DNA of 60,473 nucleotides from Fictibacillus terranigra (GTDB taxonomy: Bacteria > Bacillota > Bacilli > Bacillales > Fictibacillaceae): assembly GCF_030412265.1 (NCBI RefSeq), contig NZ_JAUHLN010000011.1:1-60473 (forward strand), written 5' to 3'. The notes under the pieces were generated by a model, which had not been told where the DNA came from, did not search any database, and saw only the letters and a program-made list of their open reading frames with translations. Positions 39,417-42,359 of the stretch are shown piece after piece (within the stretch, counting starts at the first letter, position 1; each line of letters opens with the position of its first letter). The translations under genes and the position numbers were made by a program.

Positions 39417-39752
39417 GTGGCTTATCAAATATTTATTTCAGTTGGCCGCAAGCGGCTTGCGTTAACACAAAACGGGAAAACCATTAAACGATATCCGATA
39501 GCAGTGGGGAGGATGTTAAGCCCCACTCCGGTGGGAACGTACCAAATAATCAATAAACAGCGCAATCCGGGCGGTCCTTTTGGTGCCATGTGGATGGGCC
39601 TCTCTGCGCCCCACTATGGCATCCATGGGACCAACAACCCGTCTTCCATCGGGAAAAATGTATCAAAAGGATGCATCAGAATGTTTAACAAAGATGTGCT
39701 CGAATTGTCCAGAATTGTCCCAGTTGGTACGAAAGTATATATTGGGAGATGA
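39417..39752 (+). CDS. L,D-transpeptidase (YkuD domain only)
   Basis: A 111-aa minimal YkuD catalytic domain. The motif [20 protein letters not shown] holds His70 and catalytic Cys86. No signal peptide or LysM domain is present, so localisation is unclear. The GTG start follows GGAGGTGG at 6 nt, but this site lies in a strong stem. Such enzymes form 3-3 peptidoglycan cross-links or attach proteins, often in spores. Confidence 0.9.
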
Positions 39753-39786
39753 AAAAAAGAGCCCTTTTAGAGCTCTTTTTAAAAAC
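39752..39786. terminator. Bidirectional terminator between ldt and signalling peptide gene
   Basis: AAAAAAAGAGC/GAGCTCTTTTT arms; A- and T-runs on both sides. The ldt gene and the minus-strand peptide gene converge here. Confidence 0.88.
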
Positions 39787-39789
39787 TTT

Positions 39790-39969
39790 TTAGGCCATAC
39801 CGTTAGATGCTGGATTTTGGTCATGAGCGTAGTATTGAACATTAGATGCAGGGTTTTGATCATGTGCAGATTTTTGGAAATTTCCAGGAGGGTTTTGATC
39901 ATGGAAAAGAGACGCACCTCCTGCTACTATTACTCCTGTTAAAAGTAAAGATAATCCAAGCTTTTTCAT
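39790..39969 (-). CDS. Secreted signalling propeptide with three HDQNP repeats (59 aa)
   Basis: A 59-codon gene. The N-terminus MKKLGLSLLLTGVIVAGGAS is a Sec signal peptide. The rest is three 13-residue repeats starting at residues 22, 35 and 48: FHDQNPPGNFQKS, AHDQNPASNVQYY, AHDQNPASNGMA. GGAGG lies 7 nt before the ATG, and the start is 18 nt after the regulator's stop, on the same strand. This arrangement and layout (signal peptide plus repeated short motif) match Phr/NprX/PapR-type pro-pheromones of RRNPP quorum sensing. The mature peptide probably includes HDQNP(A), an inference. A terminator follows. Confidence 0.85.
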   Translation of the reverse strand: MKKLGLSLLLTGVIVAGGASLFHDQNPPGNFQKSAHDQNPASNVQYYAHDQNPASNGMA

Positions 39970-39987
39970 ATTTATTCCTCCGTGTTT

Positions 39988-41247
39988 TTAATAAATGTTC
40001 TTTCTAGAATTATTAGCAATTCTGTAATACTGACTTGCTTTCTTATATTGTGACTGTTCAAAGTACCAATCAGCAAGTAGTTCCGAATAAGAAGACACAT
40101 ATTCCCAGATATTCTTTCTCTCGAAGAAGGGAATAGCCTCTTTACTCATGAATGTTTCGAATTCTGGTGCCTTCATTCCCTCAAGCTTATATGATGTAAT
40201 CCTTAAATGATAGTACAGGTCCTCATCTTTATTTCGATTTATTACTTCAAATCCTTTATCTATCCAATGTTTTGTTTCTTTATAATTATTTAATTTATAA
40301 TATTCTTGTGCTAAAAGGAAAAATGTACTGGCTTTCCTTTCTGGCAAATCATTGTTTTTATGAAGTAAACTTTTTTTGAAAAAATCAATAGCTTTTAAAT
40401 GTTCTTTGGTACAAGAAGCGACATAACCTAAATTGTGATAGATTACTCCTGATGCGAAACTATCATTAAAAGGCAGCGAATATTTTAATGCTTGATTGAG
40501 GTGATACTCTGCTTCAGCATAATTATTTGCTCTCCTAAAGCTTATTGCAATTAATATTTGACAATCAGCACTCCTTGAAAAATTGTACTCTTTATCAAAG
40601 ATGGTAAGAGCTTTATATGCATAAGTATTAACAGCACTAATCCGCATTAAATAACTGTAATTTAGAGCAATTAGATAATATAAAACAGCTATTTCAATTT
40701 CTTTAATACTAGTGTCAAGTTTGTTTAAATTTTCGGCTTTATGCAGATTTTGAACTGCAGTTTTGTAATTGCCGACAAGATTATAATACATCCCAGTAAA
40801 CAAGTAATAATAAAATTTAAGTTCACTGCTTAATTGTTCATGAAGACTTTTTATTTTCTTTAAGTATTTAATAGCTAATTCTAAATTAGGTGGTTGGCTA
40901 ATAAGGTAATATCTTATAAGAAATAATTCATACCTCAATATTATTTGGGGATCATGAACTATTTTTACCTTTTCTGTATTTTCCTGATAAAGCTTTTCCG
41001 CTTCTTCAAATCTACGGTTAACAATCATTAAATTCCACTCATTGAGCATTTCAAGGATCTCGTTGCTGTCGACTTCCTCAGCCGAAATACCTAAACGTTC
41101 ACAAAGGAGATTAATGACTTCTTCACTGGATTTCGCATCCCCCTTCTCAATCTTGCTCAAATAGGATACAGAACAGATTCCCTGAGCCAGTTCTTCCTGG
41201 GTTAGGCCTTTGGTTTTCCTATAATATCTTATTCTTTGACCGACCAT
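39988..41247 (-). CDS. RRNPP-type regulator: HTH plus TPR repeats (NprR/PlcR-like)
   Basis: A 419-aa protein. An XRE-type HTH is at residues 1-60 (VGQRIRYYRKTKGLTQEELA; SVSYLSKIEKGDAKS), followed by TPR helices to the end (e.g. YYNLVGNYKTAVQNLHKAEN, YHNLGYVASCTKEHLKAIDF, YYKLNNYKETKHWIDKGFEV). Length and order are those of NprR. RRNPP regulators bind re-imported short peptides in the TPR domain, changing DNA binding. The gene for a repeated secreted peptide directly follows. AAAGGGGG precedes the ATG. The 3' two-thirds are visibly AT-rich against neighbours, suggesting transfer. Confidence 0.92.
   Translation of the reverse strand: MVGQRIRYYRKTKGLTQEELAQGICSVSYLSKIEKGDAKSSEEVINLLCERLGISAEEVDSNEILEMLNEWNLMIVNRRFEEAEKLYQENTEKVKIVHDPQIILRYELFLIRYYLISQPPNLELAIKYLKKIKSLHEQLSSELKFYYYLFTGMYYNLVGNYKTAVQNLHKAENLNKLDTSIKEIEIAVLYYLIALNYSYLMRISAVNTYAYKALTIFDKEYNFSRSADCQILIAISFRRANNYAEAEYHLNQALKYSLPFNDSFASGVIYHNLGYVASCTKEHLKAIDFFKKSLLHKNNDLPERKASTFFLLAQEYYKLNNYKETKHWIDKGFEVINRNKDEDLYYHLRITSYKLEGMKAPEFETFMSKEAIPFFERKNIWEYVSSYSELLADWYFEQSQYKKASQYYRIANNSRKNIY
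40006..40023. repeat. Inverted repeat near 3' end of regulator gene
   Basis: AGAATT-N6-AATTCT, overlapping and just downstream of the candidate sigma-H -10 element for the peptide gene. It could be a regulatory site or only coding sequence. Confidence 0.4.
40017..40046 (-). promoter_or_regulatory. Candidate sigma-H promoter for the peptide gene
   Basis: On the minus strand ATAAGAAAG, 12 bp, ACAGAATTG, matching 7 of 9 and 8 of 9 positions of the sigma-H consensus (RNAGGAWWW, RNNGAATWW). It lies inside the 3' end of the regulator gene, 48 bp before the peptide ATG. Several phr genes of B. subtilis have sigma-H promoters in the same place. Confidence 0.45.
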
Positions 41248-41266: not shown

Positions 41267-41327
41267 TTGGGAAAATTGTCATGCTAACCCCCTACTCATC
41301 CAGTACCATTACTACTACTTTTCCCAA
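41267..41327. promoter_or_regulatory. Paired inverted sites upstream of RRNPP regulator
   Basis: TTGGGAAAA (41267-41275) and its exact reverse complement TTTTCCCAA (41319-41327) are 52 bp centre to centre, about five helical turns. They flank the region where the regulator promoter should lie. They are candidate operator half-sites for autoregulation with looping. Confidence 0.45.
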
Positions 41328-41442: not shown

Positions 41443-41471
41443 CGGCCAAAAAAGAAATGGAGGAGAACATA

Positions 41472-42359
41472 ATGGCGAAAATGTATACATTATCAGCAAA
41501 AGAATCAGACATCCAGAAGCTGCTTTATGTCTCGAATGATCCAGGTTTAGCCGGAAAGCCTTCCACCAACCACCTTGAGGATTCTACTCCATATACTGAT
41601 GTGTTCATGGATAATCATAAAAATTACTGGTTTGCCAAAGCTGATGACACAAAACAGAAACGGCACACCATTTATATCTTTGACCATGAAAATGGCAGGC
41701 TCATCTCACATAAAGTCAACGGCCGACCGAATTTTTATGAGTTTGATGACAGTGTGGTCATCGCTTGTGAAGGTGATGGGTCAAAAGGCTCGCTCCTTAT
41801 TTTCTCCAAGGAACAGCCTAAACTGATCAAAGAGTGGAAAGTGAACGGTTATCTGTGGGAAGTGGAGAAGAACCAGGGAGCCATCTATGTTTCCTGTTAC
41901 ATCGTCGAGGAAGATCAGGCCGTCCTGTACGTCATTAAAAACAATAAGAAAAAAAGAGTAAACTTGGGAAAGAATATAGCTCCTACCGATATCCTCTGCA
42001 TTAAGGATGAGGTGTACATTTCAGCGGCTCCCATCCTAAATGGAGATCCGAAGAAAATTATTGTCTTGAACAGTAAAGAGAAAGTGGTAAGAGAATATCC
42101 GCTTAGCATATCACCGAGGACACTCTACCATGTAGAGGATGAGATTATGGTGTATGAATTGGACCTCGCCACAGGGAAAACAGAAAAAATCGTGTACGTT
42201 AACTTGCATACGGGGGAGCAGTTCACCCATGCCATTCCGAATTCACAAGTGGTGGAATGTACGAGCCGTTCCCTTTCTCTTTTGCAGCAAGACAGCAAGA
42301 CTTTGTTTACGTGGGACCATACGAACCGCAAAATTGTGGAAAGCCGAAAGATTTCTTAA
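41472..42359 (+). CDS. Hypothetical protein, possible beta-propeller (295 aa)
   Basis: I do not recognise the family. The protein has no signal peptide or membrane segment and is built from alternating beta-strand units (KHTIYIFDHENGRLISHKVN-like, ILCIKDEVYISAAPIL, DEIMVYELDLATGKTEKIVY), which suggests a cytosolic beta-propeller. ATG 41472 follows GGAGGAG. It is divergent from the RRNPP regulator, so it is a possible target of it, though nothing proves this. Confidence 0.75.
   Translation: MAKMYTLSAKESDIQKLLYVSNDPGLAGKPSTNHLEDSTPYTDVFMDNHKNYWFAKADDTKQKRHTIYIFDHENGRLISHKVNGRPNFYEFDDSVVIACEGDGSKGSLLIFSKEQPKLIKEWKVNGYLWEVEKNQGAIYVSCYIVEEDQAVLYVIKNNKKKRVNLGKNIAPTDILCIKDEVYISAAPILNGDPKKIIVLNSKEKVVREYPLSISPRTLYHVEDEIMVYELDLATGKTEKIVYVNLHTGEQFTHAIPNSQVVECTSRSLSLLQQDSKTLFTWDHTNRKIVESRKIS

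Follow-up and report, generated by a model that had tools for sequence, protein, structure and literature searches.

A regulator gene and the small gene directly behind it, in a stretch of 60,473 nucleotides from Fictibacillus terranigra (contig NZ_JAUHLN010000011.1 of assembly GCF_030412265.1; hereafter the window), probably form a quorum sensor of the NprR type, in which a secreted pheromone encoded as tandem repeats would act on an operator-binding regulator with a scavenging output. Judging from sequence comparison, we put the probability of this reading at about 0.8. A sequence-only reading of the window had proposed that the two genes make up a complete RRNPP-type pair, the precursor carrying repeats, and comparison with relatives supports this. 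The genomes compared were seven of the same genus (the window's own, of 4.97 Mb, included), 34 of the family and 299 of the order. These relatives indicate cell-to-cell communication in which the 'language' varies by species and the predicted switched genes stay much alike.

Both open reading frames (ORFs) lie on the minus strand where they had been placed (Table 1), with three HDQNP motifs at 13-residue spacing, the first of which deviates as claimed (FHDQNPPGN). The precursor ORF begins 18 bases past the stop codon of the regulator on the same strand, has a GGAGG ribosome site, and starts with MKK and a hydrophobic stretch, the features by which signal-peptide-like starts were judged by eye here and in relatives. 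A model of the Phr signal region matches it weakly, at an E-value of 0.018 and under the cut-off. None of 500 shuffles of the precursor peptide gave three copies of a 4-mer (best 2). In three of the 353 window ORFs of 40-160 residues, the precursor being counted among the 353, some 4-mer occurs more than twice; in the other 350 none does. With three HDQNP copies, the peptide exceeds the two copies of a mature unit that mark a tandem-repeat propeptide. A degenerate DNA pattern for HDQNP has three sites in the 4.97-Mb genome, all within the precursor gene (control 0), and by this pattern there is no orphan second HDQNP precursor elsewhere in that genome.

The regulator is present in all 34 family genomes and is cut by a contig end in G016, leaving 33 readable loci. 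At each of these 33 the regulator is followed on the same strand by a short ORF whose start resembles a signal peptide, which is the NprR-type placement of a secreted precursor directly downstream. One 4-mer is present three or more times in 30 of the 33 precursors (30 of 31 examined), and for 29 of the 31 the repeat count was never matched in 500 shuffles. The 30 repeat carriers have three to nine copies, some of them imperfect, of a unit x-[DE]-x-x-P that varies by species (AHDDNPR, AHDDLP, AFDELP, ARDELP, AHDDSPK, AVDNNPGIK, SDNNPGIK, ATENNPGIR, IEDNPQPNS, VDNGPNPT, FDHTPGPKA, FDDSPTIR, YDENPPM, AHDDTPDL, IDDRPEP, AIDQTPEP, AIDELPPM), although some species have a unit in common. The other three loci have a single SFHDVPGRP (L012), a single TDSTPGIK (L057) and no core (L058). 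In the order, homologues at E 1e-72 or better occur in 73 of 299 genomes, 11 of these from the family. Among the 62 homologues outside the family, 34 loci were read (in sets of 19 and 15), and a candidate precursor is found at 28 of them: 21 have [DE]xxP within their C-terminal 40 residues, six only [DE]HP and one neither. Repeats occur outside the family too, with up to eight VDKHPDPT-type copies (L110).

The repeats themselves suggest what the mature signal would be. We aligned the units of 30 precursors on the [DE] of the unit, offsets 0 and +3 being fixed by the unit definition. Agreement between copies within a precursor is 0.92-1.00 from -1 to +3, 0.79 and 0.80 at +4 and +5, and 0.64 at +6, with -1, +4 and +5 conserved independently of how units were picked; it is 0.58 at -2 and falls to 0.23-0.42 at -3 and beyond on one side and at +7 and beyond on the other. 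At -2, just ahead of the unit, 24 of 28 distinct precursors have alanine, a count that excludes L012. From the agreement profile and this alanine we therefore predict a peptide of seven or eight residues freed after alanine, HDQNPAS(N) in the window, and our best model is that this peptide would be re-imported and activate the NprR-like regulator. In four precursors the unit forms the C-terminus (DNGPNPT in L054-L056; IDDRPEL in L087). Many spacers in the family end in KLVA or LRLA, like the LKLA that separates the copies of Phr105, both of which are matured (PMC11343458). A quite different job for the repeat peptide, such as metal binding or antimicrobial activity outside the cell with a co-transcribed regulator sensing something else, seems very improbable to us. 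Acidic [DE]xxP repeats could bind cations; however, the place of the gene, its signal-peptide-like start, its size and its species-varying unit fit a ligand, as do conserved cores of 7-8 residues between variable spacers and exchange with the sensor half as one cassette (see below), and tandem Phr precursors have been shown to yield active pheromones (PMC11343458).

The regulator combines a helix-turn-helix (HTH) domain (HTH_3, E 2e-12) with tetratricopeptide repeats (TPR; TPR_12, E 7e-15). Its match to RapH_N is weak and under the cut-off, and the AimR domain is absent from its 15 Pfam families at E up to 1. The closest solved structure is NprR (4gpk, E 1.3e-34), the best non-NprR structure being RapI (6.6e-22), and in the TPR part the two proteins are 28% identical over 339 aligned residues. 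The NprR architecture of HTH, three-helix bundle and TPR superhelix in about 420 residues is found here, and W71 (NprR W79) occurs in all of 21 aligned orthologues. Pocket positions were mapped by sequence alignment to NprR, not by a structure model; the 17 functional residues taken from PMC4970707 all fall on the right letters of 4gpk at an offset of 59. Three of the four residues at the tetramer and dimer interfaces (NprR Y223, F225, N407, Y410) are kept, as Y221 (21/21), F or Y223 (21/21) and Y408 (20/21), the N407 position being serine in all 21. The orthologues vary at R126, N306, D309 and R343, which belong to the pocket and lock of NprR (Q118, R304, S307 and D341 in the window), and the positions of W167 and H201 are mostly aromatic (Y in 17/21; Y or F in 17/21). 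Residues 1-60 are the most conserved segment (mean pairwise identity 0.91 over the 21 orthologues), whereas TPR segments past residue 85 have mean identities of 0.34-0.68. Within the genus the regulator occurs in 7/7 genomes at 56-100% identity, and its frame is open in every family genome listed at full length.

Another way to view this protein is as a Rap-like one, in which the peptide-free form captures a response regulator (Spo0F, for instance) until the peptide releases it, and DNA binding plays a minor part in the output. We think this unlikely. NprR of Bacillus thuringiensis is bifunctional (PMC4970707), and the weak RapH_N match, W71 and Y221 in 21/21 orthologues, and D or E at D99 in 19/21 are consistent with such a role. 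However, only two of the four Spo0F-contact positions (NprR D107, Y118, E188, Y223) are retained, as D99 and Y221, while L110 and E183 are not kept; the HTH, a domain that Rap proteins lack, is the most conserved segment of the regulator; and an operator stands at a fixed place before 33/33 orthologues. As separate observations on related genes, genome G024 holds four tandem HTH-TPR genes of 423-426 residues with almost the same HTH (L206 2180-7463), and in L013 and L014 a 36%-identity paralogue is followed by an ORF of 38-48 residues with a signal-peptide-like start, ending in LFDEEFPDI.

DNA identity and phylogeny show an in-place swap of the TPR half together with the pheromone gene, the HTH, promoter and neighbours being native. 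The nearest flanks to the window are those of G004 and G005. Identity between the window and G004 is 0.80-0.96 up to about 39775, falls to 0.53-0.74 as far as about 41016, and recovers to 0.92-0.96 over the HTH and promoter; G002 is nearer than G004 inside this cassette (0.58-0.82) and further outside it. Trees of 16 loci were compared for the flank proteins and for the TPR part. The flank tree rejects the pairing of the window with G002 (L064; approximately unbiased test, p 0.00035) and the TPR tree rejects its pairing with G004 (L065; p 5e-43). These two rejections are the firm tree results, as the positive pairings are moderate or weak in support (89/83 and 78/68, the latter for the window with L064 in the TPR tree). 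A parsimony count gave seven changes on the TPR tree and nine on the flank tree, for classes that were named after the trees had been seen. Taken together, the identity profile, the trees and the contrast of conserved HTH with variable TPR thus show that the exchanged unit is the sensor half plus the signal gene. The first codons of the regulator (41140-41247) are near-identical across species in DNA, third positions included.

The sequence-only reading had taken the AT-richness of the region as a sign of transfer. The richness is real (regulator GC content 0.32), but the six other same-genus orthologues have 0.32-0.35, which removes it as evidence of recent transfer; a recently acquired locus, as argued from AT-richness, was ruled out on the same ground, and lateral exchange is shown by cassette identity and trees, not by AT content. 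Phage and plasmid origins were considered and rejected: 20 phage records match, of which the 15 listed have 22-23% identity and are named Rap, hypothetical or without annotation, and 172 plasmid records match, all below 60%, the 15 listed at 24-33%. That the locus is recently acquired foreign DNA now decaying is hardly credible. AT-richness, the imperfect first repeat and the discordance of the cassette with its flanks could be read that way; however, place, neighbours and low GC are the same in seven same-genus genomes, the regulator frame is open as noted above, and the operator is intact. Relatives' precursors also hold imperfect copies, so that the deviating first repeat of the window need not mean decay.

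The conserved site upstream of the regulator is an inverted repeat, TTGGGAAAA-N43-TTTTCCCAA, which we propose as the operator. Its arms are unchanged in 21 aligned loci bar one base in one locus, and most of the spacer varies. Exact sites, with spacers of 30-60 allowed, number 22 in seven genomes, 21 with a spacer of 43 and one of 42 (control 0); with at most one mismatch there are 182 in 34/34 family genomes (the sum of the listed counts) against none for the reversed control. The operator precedes 33/33 regulator orthologues (32 exactly, one with one mismatch) and 6/6 rap genes of one kind, with one mismatch each. It does not precede 17/17 HTH-TPR paralogues, where the best candidates have 4-7 mismatches, nor the other Rap, with five. 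Across the order, the exact core TTGGGAAA-N44/45-TTTCCCAA occurs in 61 of 299 genomes (reversed control in one), and in 54 of the 73 with a homologue (Fisher p 3e-35 against those without, phylogeny not corrected). Of the 19 distant homologues, 17 lie within 170 bp of a site with at most two mismatches (spacer 41 in two cases); of the remaining two, one has a site only at -1012 and one none. We prefer a DNA site to an RNA leader because unrelated promoters carry the two arms at the same fixed distance, the upstream inverted repeat folds no better than shuffles (z -0.04), and Rfam gave nothing at E 1. A sigma-70 scan found four sites, against 6.8 in shuffles. The operator of the founder NprR lies beyond this sample: the 4gpk sequence matched nothing above 37% in the 299 order genomes, which places the B. 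cereus group outside it.

What the operator would control can be read from the genes behind it. With up to two mismatches the genus has 39 sites, of which 21 contexts were read and 11 assigned by coordinates (seven before the regulator, four before rap), both groups agreeing with the direct check of sites before regulator and rap genes; the other seven, outside the read set, are in G004 (2), G005 (3), G001 (1) and G006 (1). The 21 contexts comprise an M4-type protease (6), an M4 remnant (1), DJ-1/PfpI (6), rap-phr (3), a secreted GH43 (2) and unclear cases (3). Outside the genus the family has 151 sites, of which 22 contexts were read, all in g2: DJ-1 (5), S8 subtilisin (5), PhoX (3), Rap (3), AimR-like (2), M10-like (1), a metallo-beta-lactamase fold (1), DUF4379 (1) and none (1). 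Pfam confirmation was made on one representative each of M4, GH43 and DJ-1 in the genus and of S8 and PhoX in g2; BLAST identified other copies of DJ-1 and Rap in g2, and further copies were assigned by eye from N-termini. An M4-type ORF begins 70-73 bp past the operator in the five other genus genomes read (G005 outside), except that in L132 the distance is 24 bp, counted from an upstream start; Pfam was run on one of the six M4-type ORFs. A site precedes rap in 7/7 genus genomes, with a spacer of 42 in G003. NprR of B. thuringiensis activates the metalloprotease nprA and other degradative enzymes (PMC3325205), and the predicted output here is of the same kind. Behind the operator-preceded rap, the Phr is near-constant (EHGVIRD) in six same-genus genomes and differs in G003 and in two g2 genomes where one was seen. 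In G003 it comprises ten tandem HGEVF copies (NQHGEVFSKGATT units; L128 1847-2316, minus strand), in contrast to the single-copy NprR-like precursor of the same genome. In G016, two AimR-like regulators (L204 9180-10478, L205 9926-11209) are preceded by the host NprR-type operator; their contigs are AT-rich with neighbours plasmid-like by eye, and eavesdropping by mobile elements is possible.

A number of observations weigh against our interpretation. In the window's own genome the operator sites lie before the regulator, DJ-1/PfpI and rap-phr, plus a degenerate one before an M4 remnant (G000:C9:1328356-1328599), a C-terminal stretch of 49 codons at 92% identity; the M4 protease gene, a predicted target, is lost at this place in the window's strain, and two other M4-type genes (44-50% identity) elsewhere have no operator match listed nearby. 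The regulator's own operator, its nearer arm about 20 bp before the start codon, has a repressor-like place; at this site the effect may be repression, or the operator may act on the divergent gene. Of the NprR positions that contact Spo0F, L110 is not kept and E183, present in the window, is variable (E 7, D 6, Q 5, other 3). The three family loci short of repeats are those of G025, with a secreted ORF that has no core, and of G003 and G007, with a single copy each. The sequence-only reading had named homologues without a downstream peptide as evidence against itself; the family passes, with an ORF at 33/33 loci and repeats at 30, but six of the 34 non-family loci read have no precursor, which counts against the claim for distant kin. 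Covariation of the pheromone with its pocket, also expected by that reading, was found only in part. Pheromone distance correlates with TPR distance (Mantel 0.42, reached by 2 of 5000 permutations) but equally with flank distance (0.43, reached by 1), and partial Mantel values (TPR 0.28, reached by 55/5000; flank 0.30, by 25/5000) likewise do not separate TPR from flanks.

The operator, too, is less than perfectly tied to the regulator. At up to two mismatches the 39 genus sites compare with five in the control; the exact core is missing from 19 of the 73 homologue-bearing order genomes and present in 7 of the 226 without a homologue above the cut-off; and in the 15 further homologue loci it lies upstream in seven, lies just behind the regulator in three and is absent from the stretch read in five. 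The 19 and 7 exceptional genomes speak for a reading in which the TTGGGAAAA-N43-TTTTCCCAA sites belong to another regulator of the locus and of the secreted enzymes, with the NprR-like protein binding elsewhere. We regard this as improbable, to about the same degree as a Rap-like output, given the constant position of the site before every readable orthologue, its absence from the 17 paralogues, the genome association of 54/73 against 7/226, and the sites near 17 of 19 distant homologues.

The NprX precursor gene lies directly behind nprR. PlcR-PapR likewise consists of a DNA-binding regulator and then a peptide, with a 16-bp palindrome, TATGNAN4TNCATA, as the site; PlcR has about 285 residues, a length that the regulator here, at 419, does not share. 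NprR-NprX and the present pair have in common an HTH and TPR protein of similar size, tetramer-interface residues and, among relatives' predicted targets, an M4 neutral protease (PMC3325205, PMC4970707). They differ in the signal (SSKPDIVG there, tandem [DE]xxP here), in the hypervariable sensor half exchanged between relatives here, and in the defined long-spaced operator, for which the excerpts of PMC3325205 and PMC4970707 name no counterpart in B. thuringiensis. NprR-NprX is reported to be a tetramer with two DNA-binding sites (PMC4970707), which would suit half-sites 52 bp apart. In a set of 17 NprR propeptides of atypically large size, all are repetitive, with up to six copies (Felipe-Ruiz 2022, PMC9765709), compared with up to nine here; repeat NprR-type precursors are therefore in print and this kind of system is known. 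The main text of PMC9765709 does not contain the words Fictibacillus, operator or promoter, and excerpts of the paper describe no exchange with a fixed output. Tandem propeptides of Rap-Phr systems (Phr3T, Phr105; up to eight copies mentioned) resemble those here and are cut and active, but Rap has no HTH and both are phage systems (PMC11343458). AimR of the arbitrium system, likewise an RRNPP regulator, sits on two inverted boxes set unusually far apart, though there the boxes are 2 x 6 bp and the spacer 25 bp (PMC6458997), compared with 2 x 9 bp and 42-43 bp here. Among the papers listed in searches of the open-licence literature, supplements apart, we found no description of this locus, no Fictibacillus system of the NprR type, judging by titles and opening lines of abstracts, and no paper on an NprR operator, judging by titles; the excerpt of the RRNPP_detector paper (PMC10075063) does not name Fictibacillus. 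In-place cassette exchange, the long-spaced operator and its predicted regulon go beyond the known repeat NprR systems.

The same neighbouring genes occur in 7/7 genus genomes (signal peptidase, Tag and YkuD; then UNK300 and CorA). The divergent 300-residue gene (Table 1) is kept beside the system in six genus loci and in 20 named loci compared.

Table 1. Positions in the window of the proposed quorum-sensing system and of its flanking genes.
Feature	Position	Strand	Remark
NprR-like HTH-TPR regulator, 419 residues	39988..41247	-	proposed pheromone receptor and transcription factor; orthologue in 34/34 family genomes
HTH DNA-binding domain (Pfam HTH_3, residues 6-58)	41074..41232	-	profile match, orthologue identity
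Putative pheromone precursor, 59 residues; signal-peptide-like start, then three 13-residue HDQNP repeats	39790..39969	-	
First HDQNP copy (FHDQNPPGN)	39890..39903	-	degenerate HDQNP DNA pattern
Second HDQNP copy (AHDQNPASN)	39851..39864	-	degenerate HDQNP DNA pattern
Third HDQNP copy (AHDQNPASN)	39812..39825	-	degenerate HDQNP DNA pattern
Specificity cassette swapped in place (TPR part with pheromone gene)	39775..41016	.	identity to G004 falls to 0.53-0.74
Proposed operator, inverted repeat TTGGGAAAA-N43-TTTTCCCAA	41267..41327	.	arms 41267-41275 and 41319-41327
Divergent gene, 300 residues, no Pfam family at E 0.001	41457..42359	+	may share operator
YkuD L,D-transpeptidase	39417..39752	+	conserved flank, outside the system

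In the mechanism that we propose, the precursor of 59 residues would be exported by Sec, and extracellular proteases would free octamer-like peptides, mostly after alanine (two copies of A|HDQNPASN plus the variant FHDQNPPGN). The Opp permease would then take the peptides back in, and the window's genome encodes seven SBP_bac_5 (Opp-type binding) proteins. Inside the cell the peptides would bind the TPR superhelix of the regulator, and the peptide-bound protein, probably a tetramer as in NprR, would occupy two 9-bp half-operators with centres 52 bp apart. At high density this would activate scavenging enzymes and rap-phr, and Rap-Phr would link the system to the control of sporulation. Activation as the direction of control is inferred from NprR of B. 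thuringiensis, and the steps beyond the sequence evidence follow NprR and Phr.

Since the cassette is exchanged while HTH, operator and neighbours stay, lineages would vary in their signal word and keep a common output. We lean, at a little better than even odds, towards a modular sensor of the 'private word, common meaning' kind in the family, and more loosely across the order. Here the cassette would be traded at a fixed locus with HTH, 61-bp operator and public-good regulon constant; the same operator would drive a second, Rap-Phr channel, its Phr near-constant in 6/7 genus genomes, and a hypervariable, kin-private channel would thus gate a wider sporulation channel. The predicted link from an NprR-like sensor to Rap-Phr would place two peptide signals in a hierarchy. 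With the operator, NprR-type regulons could be read off the genome sequences of many genera in the order, and about 30 naturally matched receptor-pheromone variants with a predicted common output would make the divergence and spread of specificity directly testable.

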